NCBI GenBank assembly: GCA_016649835.1
Contig: JAENWX010000005.1
Span: 1-32,324, forward strand
DNA: 32,324 nucleotides
Direction: 5' to 3'
Origin: Minisyncoccota bacterium
Lineage (GTDB): Bacteria > Patescibacteriota > Minisyncoccia > Phycocordibacterales > UBA9973
Part shown: piece by piece, positions 16,445 through 19,001 of the stretch
How the letters are laid out: every line of letters starts with the position of its first letter
How positions within the stretch are numbered: the stretch's first letter is position 1
The notes under the pieces: model-generated
Databases searched by the model: none
What the model saw: only the letters and a program-made list of their open reading frames with translations
Told to the model about the DNA's origin: nothing
Program-made: the position numbers and the translations under genes

Positions 16445-16670
16445 CACACGCGAAGCACGCAGGTGCTGGGACCGTGAGTACACTTATCGATTCTTACAGA
16501 ATCTGTACACCCATTCGCTCCGATGTCCATCGGAGAACGAAAAGTCTTTCGATTCCCAGTGGGACCGTGAGTACACTTATCGGCTACCACGTAGCCATGT
16601 ACTTTTCGCTCTGGCTAATGCCAGAGAACGAAAAGTCTTTCGATTCCCACACGCGAAGCACGCAGGTGCT
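16445..16670. repeat. Tandem structured GC-rich module (two ~90-nt copies) bounded by 23-bp direct repeats
   Basis: CACACGCGAAGCACGCAGGTGCT at 16445 and 16648; modules 16467-16558 and 16560-16649 share GGGACCGTGAGTACACTTATC and AGAACGAAAAGTCTTTCGATTCCCA but carry different perfect hairpins. Confidence 0.85.
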
Positions 16671-16675
16671 TCGCT

Positions 16676-16731
16676 CTCGGGCACAATAAAAAAATTCTAG
16701 CAAAAGCTAGAATTTTTTTATTGTGCCCGAG
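16676..16731. repeat. Perfect inverted repeat (26-bp arms, 4-nt loop) overlapping tRNA-Leu 3' end; core acts as terminator candidate
   Basis: CTCGGGCACAATAAAAAAATTCTAGC-AAAA-GCTAGAATTTTTTTATTGTGCCCGAG. Confidence 0.95.
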
Positions 16732-16806
16732 GTGGGAATCGAACCCACATCCCTTACGAGACACGATTTTAAGTCGTGCGCGTATACCAGTTCCGCCACT
16801 CGGGCA
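16724..16806 (-). tRNA. tRNA-Leu (anticodon UAA)
   Basis: TGCCCGAGTGGCGGAACTGGTATACGCGCACGACTTAAAATCGTGTCTCGTAAGGGATGTGGGTTCGATTCCCACCTCGGGCA; class II variable arm, CCA not encoded. Confidence 0.95.
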
Positions 16807-18299: not shown

Positions 18300-18325
18300 A
18301 TTTTAGTAGTTCAACTACTAAAATT
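18299..18325. repeat. 27-bp palindrome, copy 1 (3' end of transposase)
   Basis: AATTTTAGTAGTT-C-AACTACTAAAATT. Confidence 0.95.
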
Positions 18326-18947
18326 CTATTTCTTCTTTCCTTTTTAATGTTTCTTTCCAGGAAGATTCTGCAAACTCTAGGTAGTTTACCTTACTTTTAA
18401 AATTAGATAAAACTATTTCTTTATTACACAAACCCTTTATTTGGTCTTTTGTGTATTCTTCTAGGCTTGATTTACTAAACTCTGAAATCAAATCTCCATT
18501 TTCATTTCTATTATTAAAATTTATATAAGCACTTAAATTAAGAAGATAATTATTGTCTTCGATTATTTTTGATTTAAATCTTCCTTGAAATAAAACACCA
18601 CTCCTATCGTACTTTTCATTAAAATATCTAGTATAACCACCAACACGTTGCATAAATTTTTCTATTCCATTATCCACAACTGGAGACAGGATCAAATGGA
18701 AATGATTTTTATTTATACAATATGCAACAATAGAAACAAGTGGTTTTTTAGTAGTTGAACTACTAAAATTTAACTTTTTCTTTAAATGTTGCTGAAATAT
18801 ACTTTGGATAGGATCAACCACATTAAATTCAATAAGACTTTGCATAAATCTTTTGAGATCTTCTATATCTAAAATAATATATCTTTTATCTGAACCCCTA
18901 TTATAAATATGATAATATTTTCCTATCTCAAAAATGTGATTTCTCAT
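18318..18947 (-). CDS. Y1/IS200-like HUH transposase, REP-associated tyrosine transposase (RAYT)-like
   Basis: YYHIYNRGSDKR...IVAYCINKNHFHLILSPVVDNGIEKFMQRVGGYTRYFNEKYDRSGVLFQGRFKS: HxH (HFH) and catalytic-Tyr region; start at 18947 preceded by TATAAT. Confidence 0.88.
   Translation of the reverse strand: MRNHIFEIGKYYHIYNRGSDKRYIILDIEDLKRFMQSLIEFNVVDPIQSIFQQHLKKKLNFSSSTTKKPLVSIVAYCINKNHFHLILSPVVDNGIEKFMQRVGGYTRYFNEKYDRSGVLFQGRFKSKIIEDNNYLLNLSAYINFNNRNENGDLISEFSKSSLEEYTKDQIKGLCNKEIVLSNFKSKVNYLEFAESSWKETLKRKEEIEF
18746..18768. repeat. 23-bp palindrome, copy 2, inside the transposase CDS (in frame)
   Basis: TTTTAGTAGTT-G-AACTACTAAAA; encodes NFSSSTTKK. Confidence 0.95.
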
Positions 18948-18972
18948 AATGATATAATTATACCACACTTAT

Positions 18973-19001
18973 AAATTTTAGTAGTTCAACTACTAAAATT
19001 T
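18973..19001. repeat. 29-bp palindrome, copy 3 (5' of transposase)
   Basis: AAATTTTAGTAGTT-C-AACTACTAAAATTT. Confidence 0.95.

Follow-up and report, generated by a model that had tools for sequence, protein, structure and literature searches.

Organization of the locus downstream of tRNA-Leu(UAA)

The window analysed here is the entire stretch of 32,324 nt from contig JAENWX010000005.1 of a Minisyncoccota bacterium, whose assembled genome comprises 735 kb in 56 contigs and is 92% complete. Within it, two structured modules are situated between the 3' end of tRNA-Leu(UAA) and a convergent gene. The relevant features are as follows:

16445..16467, plus strand: CACACGCGAAGCACGCAGGTGCT, truncated T-arm end with a copy of the GCAG hairpin (direct-repeat search)
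16466..16559, plus strand: module 1, second, tandem core with loop TTACA (match to covariance model R1, 81.5 bits)
16559..16650, plus strand: module 2 (R1 match, 124.9 bits over 16559-16675)
16639..16650, plus strand: TTCGATTCCCAC, inverted copy of the T-arm 3' half of the adjoining tRNA-Leu, identical at 12/12 positions
16653..16674, plus strand: perfect 9-bp hairpin GCGAAGCAC-GCAG-GTGCTTCGC, loop CTGC in tRNA orientation (sequence; helix 5 of the 115-copy alignment)
16676-16683: CTCGGGCA, 8 nt, inverted copy of the tRNA acceptor 3' strand (based on the inverted acceptor copy statistics)
16676..16731, no strand: 26-bp perfect inverted repeat with a 4-nt centre, arms 16676-16701/16706-16731 (inverted-repeat search)
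16723..16805, minus strand: tRNA-Leu(UAA), the host gene (ARAGORN; Rfam RF00005, 61.7 bits)
18318..18968, minus strand: Y1_Tnp (IS200-like HUH) protein of 216 aa, candidate mobiliser (PF01797, E=1.3e-8)

The last 20 nt of tRNA-Leu(UAA), TTCGATTCCCAC-CTCGGGCA, are the source of the sequence copied into the element. The inverted repeat at 16676-16731 begins within the 3' end of the tRNA and forms an A/T-tract hairpin, which reads as a terminator-like structure and is regarded here as a putative terminator; it was not among the features listed by a consensus scan for terminators and promoters. The GCAG hairpin separates the T-arm copy from the acceptor copy and is placed precisely at their junction. 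Module 2 consists of an outer stem, GTGGG/CCCAC, which has T-stem sequence, the mini-hairpin GTG-AGTA-CAC, a 5-bp hairpin with loop CCACG, and a long hairpin. Module 1 is devoid of a complete GCAG hairpin of its own, and its long hairpin has a broken lower stem (CCATTCG versus CGAAAAG); its appearance is chimeric, with the CCCCATTCG/CGAATGGGG stem of the tRNA-Glu locus as the apparent partner. From its sequence, the segment at 16445..16467 is probably the remnant of another tandem unit. The folds are far outside what shuffled sequences give: RNA folding yielded z = -5.3 for module 2 and z = -3.1 for module 1, and for the region 16445-16745, folded as single-stranded DNA, z was -20 and none of 100 shuffles equalled it.

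An earlier note on this DNA had described two tandem modules at 16445-16670 with a constant framework and exchanged perfect hairpins. All strings it named are present where it placed them, the modules share identical blocks of 23 nt (16467/16560) and 26 nt (16533/16624), and the hairpins GATTC-TTACA-GAATC, GGCTAC-CAC-GTAGCC, CTCCGATG-TC-CATCGGAG and CTCTGGC-TAAT-GCCAGAG are perfectly paired. However, the extent was set too small, as the unit runs on via the inverted repeat 16676-16731 into the tRNA-Leu gene. The direct repeat of 23 bp, which had been taken for a boundary, is exact over 23 nt and conserved at 93% over 28 nt (16440/16643), but it is not a border: it consists of the terminal part of the T-arm copy together with a GCAG-hairpin copy, which is intact at 16653-16674 and cut short at 16445-16467, and so reflects tandem duplication. 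The note missed that the modules are linked to tRNA and tmRNA 3' ends and that host tRNA sequence is copied into the arms of the element.

A repeat family behind tRNA and tmRNA genes

Searching the genome of the window at the DNA level yielded 32 matches, and the covariance model R1, which was built from 17 copies, yielded 43. Beyond this genome, R1 matches 36 of 41 relatives, including all 23 other genomes of the genus. When 12 candidates were scored per genome, matches were obtained in 121 of 297 genomes and 72 of 165 genera of an order-wide sample, while in a sample of the phylum 12 of 380 genomes matched, only two of which lie outside the order. An exact pattern, searched in GTDB genomes, led to records named Nomurabacteria, Vogelbacteria and Paceibacterota, and the hosts of the family within the order are Nomurabacteria, Vogelbacteria and other Paceibacteria. 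Many further copies thus exist in the same genome and in relatives, which the earlier note had proposed to look for. Its failure to recognise a known family is likewise borne out: at the gathering cut-off, a search of Rfam 15 returned only the tRNA, in addition to tmRNA and one DUF3800-V RNA at other loci, and left the modules unmatched. The latter RNA (RF02964, 66.7 bits; L065 2321-2435, G000 C55, where G000 denotes the window's genome) is located elsewhere in the genome. No earlier description of tRNA-linked palindromes in Patescibacteria was found in Rfam and the open-access literature.

The address of the family is highly specific. In the window's genome, 30 of the 43 matches lie in antisense orientation at most 450 nt from the 3' end of a tRNA or tmRNA gene, and none is found there in sense orientation. 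At least one unit accompanies 22 of the 36 tRNA/tmRNA genes, and several of the 14 exceptions are located at contig ends. A set of 115 modules was drawn largely from nine genomes of the genus, which contributed 103. Of the 115, 93 are found in antisense orientation within 400 nt behind a tRNA/tmRNA gene, 76 of these at a distance of 29-56 nt, and the remainder of the 93 are second or third tandem units; tandem units occur at Gln, Phe and Leu of G008. The 60 stretches that supplied the modules had been picked for a strong R1 match and not for tRNAs. Moreover, in distant families and the two genomes outside the order, 16 of 20 loci face a tRNA by our own count.

Several loci depart from this arrangement. 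In orphan units (L062 (G000 C49), L082, L183, L208 (925-1040), L212, L221 and L234), the last nucleotides of the tRNA and the terminator hairpin are kept while the tRNA is missing, and some orphan units of different genomes share one upstream sequence. In L192 (G005 C7:220446), a tRNA-Arg ends after its D-arm and is fused directly to the terminator hairpin of the unit. In addition, assembly contigs of G000 end at or within palindromes (C50 end, C16 end, C18 end, C1 start); at C50, the fold-back consists of an inverted tRNA-Lys copy, which is likely an assembly artefact.

Anatomy and host-matched arms

Read in the direction of the tRNA, the tRNA itself is followed by the A/T-tract hairpin of the unit, whose far arm ends with an inverted copy of the last 8 nt of the tRNA. 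Next comes a hairpin of about 9 bp with a loop that is mostly CTGC, and then the inverted 3' half of the T-arm, 12 nt long. The subsequent core is a three-hairpin cloverleaf made up of the long hairpin, a 5-bp hairpin with loop TGTAA and the mini-hairpin; it is followed by GGTCC, which in some units continues as the tRNA 3' end repeated in direct orientation. The CTGC hairpin divides the inverted 20-nt tRNA end precisely at the boundary between T-stem and acceptor. Taken together, tRNA, terminator hairpin and element constitute one long interrupted inverted repeat.

The match of the arms to the adjoining tRNA was assessed in 73 modules with a recognised T-arm, with permutation as the control. 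The T-arm 12-mer agrees with the module's own tRNA at 11.4 of 12 positions (permuted 8.6, sd 0.13) and the acceptor 8-mer at 7.5 of 8 (permuted 4.5, sd 0.13), while the T-stem 5-mer reaches 4.3 (permuted 3.0, sd 0.08). For the distal direct acceptor copy the match is 5.0 (permuted 3.7, sd 0.11); these direct copies are mostly eroded or absent, and the own acceptor copy ties with or beats the others in 31 of the 73 modules.

The cores behave differently from the arms. Among 85 cores, in a genome sampling that is uneven and uncorrected, the nearest neighbour belongs to another tRNA in another genome in 52 cases and to the same tRNA in another genome in 12, where 2.4 would be expected at random. 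Hence, there is some vertical descent besides much exchange.

Pairing and covariation of the stems

In the alignment of 115 copies, 93.5% of stem cells are paired and 35 of the 37 pairs show double changes. Covariation amounts to 0.671, compared with 0.152 after shuffling and at most 0.09 after sliding, and 1163 double changes are counted versus 314 in shuffles, which bears out the earlier view of a constant framework with compensatory stem changes. This alignment was fitted to the structure; an unfitted MAFFT alignment of 17 copies gave the same picture. The GCAG hairpin (helix 5) is paired at 97.5% with all nine of its nine pairs covarying. The outer GTACA/TGTAC pairing of the earlier note, by contrast, is not the conserved one: GTAC is nearly constant, and the small stem that covaries (helix 2) is GTG-AGTA-CAC, of which GCG/CGC and ATG/CAT variants also occur.

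G-T pairs are absent from the TTACA hairpin (0/535) and account for 1.9% and 1.7% in the long and GCAG hairpins, respectively, as against 6.5% and 6.3% in the acceptor and T stems of the tRNAs at the same loci; the outer and mini helices have ordinary G-T shares. A low G-T share is expected in young stems made by template switching, whatever their function, and is therefore no proof of a role as DNA; it speaks more for the copying mechanism than for a function as DNA. A single template-switching event is known to be capable of both making and mending perfect stems (PMC8794818). A comparison of the tRNA-Leu(UAA) locus between G000 and G005 illustrates how stems change: the tRNA is identical, the upstream 60 nt agree at 93% and the core at 95%, while the stems of both the terminator and the CTGC/GCAG hairpin have been swapped for other paired stems. 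Replacement of whole stems in this manner is the kind of change that template switching brings about (PMC8794818).

Possible origin and spread of the element

The sequences establish a family with a common anatomy, an address at tRNA/tmRNA 3' ends, arms that match their own tRNA, covarying Watson-Crick stems and tandem duplication. The earlier suggestion of a structured RNA stands with respect to a repeated, covarying structure, but a palindrome at the DNA level is the better reading, because the element lies beyond the terminator-like hairpin of the tRNA, is found on the antisense strand and has fewer G-T pairs than the tRNAs. The explanation favoured here, to which we assign an even chance, is that the modules are DNA-level palindromic repeats which are anchored at tRNA/tmRNA 3' ends, spread between them and have their arms rewritten by hairpin-templated copying. 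The element would accordingly act and change as DNA hairpins, not as a dedicated RNA. Cores would swap between tRNA loci because the T-arms are alike, and at a new locus, template switches inside the hairpin while it is being replicated would adapt the arms to the tRNA now adjoining them, a process that could at the same time keep the stems perfect. If a mobilising enzyme participates, the multiple Y1 transposases of the IS200/TnpA_REP type would be candidates. A side effect on transcription, namely bidirectional termination behind the tRNA, is plausible. With respect to movement, no event was observed, and no clean pair of filled and empty loci was found among the loci compared; a clean empty site at tRNA-Arg(CCT) in G005 was considered and set aside as ambiguous, as it may represent loss.

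That loops and address have been strongly conserved throughout an order points to a function beyond this explanation. It is possible, if rather unlikely, that the family is a previously undescribed, order-wide element of Paceibacteria which is addressed to tRNA/tmRNA 3' ends, has its arms rewritten each time by a dedicated DNA-hairpin copying machinery and fulfils a cellular role at tRNA genes.

As a tentative alternative to the spreading palindrome, the modules may be cis-acting elements that perform a function in the cell and are selected at each tRNA gene individually, which we consider improbable without dismissing it. Such an element might serve as a structured double-sided transcription stop or insulator, or as a pre-tRNA 3' trailer or antisense RNA that pairs with the T-arm. 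Order-wide presence at a constant address and spacing, perfect A/T-tract hairpins directly behind the tRNA, arms complementary to the T-arm and acceptor of the own tRNA, and the partial vertical descent of cores are all consistent with such a role. On the other hand, the core is located past the terminator hairpin, cores are shuffled between loci, no promoter was found near the module by the consensus scan, and 14 of the 36 tRNA/tmRNA genes of the genome do without a unit, though some merely through contig ends. Moreover, the genes downstream of Gly-CCC and Arg-CCT run in the tRNA's own direction, so that blocking of antisense transcription is not the common factor; as a general purpose, it was rejected on account of these two genes.

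Five Y1_Tnp matches are present in the window's genome, one of which (18318..18968) lies 1.6 kb from the modules, and Y1_Tnp genes occur in 26 of the 41 relatives; modules are also present in G009, G029, G034 and G036, where no Y1_Tnp candidate was detected. At E <= 1, no solved structure matched the Y1 protein of the window in sequence. Copies of a perfect palindrome, TTTTAGTAGTT-N-AACTACTAAAA, bracket its gene, and a further copy lies inside it (18301-18323, 18746-18768 and 18976-18998); the palindrome contains GTAG, differs in sequence from the module and occurs nowhere else in the genome. Separately, GTAG-tagged hairpins such as CCAGTAGGCGAATGTACTCATTCGC are nested in module loops, just after TTAC or before GCAG, and are found in TTACA loops (L054, L019/L027, L087, L226) as well as GCAG loops (L008, L012). 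A strict scan gave four clear GTAG examples, a loose search many chance hits, and an earlier, narrower scan few. IS608-type TnpA inserts 3' of TTAC.

On these grounds, the modules could be non-autonomous elements whose folded single-stranded DNA is moved by Y1/HUH transposases of the RAYT/TnpA_REP type, that is, relatives of REPs targeting tRNA 3' ends, which we judge distinctly unlikely. The number of Y1_Tnp genes in 735 kb, the proximity of one of them and their frequency in relatives speak in its favour, as do the GTAG-tagged hairpins inserted in TTAC^A and GAA^GCAG loops; yet Y1 genes and modules do not strictly co-occur, the palindrome at the window's Y1 gene is confined to its three copies there, the module is no GTAG-tagged palindrome of 20-40 nt, and the nested examples are a handful among the many chance hits of the loose search. 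An obligatory mobilisation by Y1 transposase was rejected on account of the incomplete co-occurrence and the private nature of that palindrome.

The recombination-cassette array envisaged in the earlier note is retained as far as tandem units and direct repeats of the tRNA 3' end are concerned, but integron features were not seen, and a search for Phage_integrase genes in the 92%-complete genome yielded none. That the modules are remnants or att arrays of integron- or island-like elements that a tyrosine recombinase had inserted at tRNA 3' ends is very doubtful: some units (Glu, Gly-CCC, His) terminate in a direct copy of 16-23 nt from the tRNA 3' end, tandem units occur, orphan units are joined to foreign sequence and a Phage_integrase domain is present in 39 of the 41 genomes of the set, but this is mostly one Xer-like protein per genome, as expected of Xer, none was found in the 92%-complete genome of the window (perhaps owing to a gap in the assembly), the units carry no genes, the distal direct copies are largely eroded, and such integration does not make inverted target copies.

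Relation to known systems

By analogy, the module family appears to work most like REP/BIME-type palindromes and mitochondrial hairpin elements. With the REP/BIME/REPIN systems and their TnpA_REP (RAYT), which are GTAG- and CGTC-tagged (PMC3733652; PMC8266576), the modules share their short, intergenic, perfectly paired and multicopy nature, their single or tandem occurrence and, in the window's genome and many relatives, accompanying Y1 transposase genes. Insertion of REPs inside longer palindromes has been described as well (PMC3733652). In contrast to the 20-40 nt stem of a REP, however, the module is a multi-hairpin cloverleaf of about 120 nt whose consensus is devoid of a GTAG (or CGTC) foot tag, GTAG being carried by rare nested hairpins only. 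Furthermore, modules are strictly located behind tRNA/tmRNA genes, copy the host tRNA in their arms and persist where no Y1 genes were detected. Mitochondrial GC clusters (yeast GC42, PMC4478555) and sponge RHE (PMC2800124) are likewise GC-rich hairpins of AT-rich genomes that merge, nest and shuffle, and these elements are mobile (PMC4478555; PMC2800124); the modules differ by being bacterial, anchored at tRNA 3' ends and equipped with host-matched arms.

Like MITEs, the modules are repeated, noncoding sequences of 70-300 nt with terminal inverted repeats, but these repeats vary by copy, track the adjoining tRNA and lack a common terminus, and no parent (autonomous) transposon was found in a non-exhaustive search. 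Integron attC arrays and tRNA-integrated islands resemble the family in their folded tandem sites and tRNA 3'-end direct repeats, whereas the units of the family are geneless, have inverted tRNA copies besides direct ones and come with no integron integrase that was seen. The perfect stems of RNA hairpins formed by template switching (PMC8794818) are replaced or repaired en bloc as are those of the modules; these hairpins reside in RNA genes, while the template copied into the module includes the end of a tRNA gene. Finally, the covarying structure found in the module is a feature of structured non-coding RNAs and is also expected of a DNA palindrome.

Significance

A structured repeat behind most tRNA/tmRNA genes is unexpected in Paceibacteria, since their small genomes have few repeats. 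The palindromes also confound genome assembly, as reflected by contig ends, as well as the automatic annotation of tRNA ends and terminators. If the element is mobile, it would be a palindrome with an unusual, tRNA-guided address. Because the copies fit their own tRNA and stems are swapped whole, the family constitutes a natural record of how perfect hairpins originate and are maintained, and evolution by template switching thereby becomes directly testable in bacteria.
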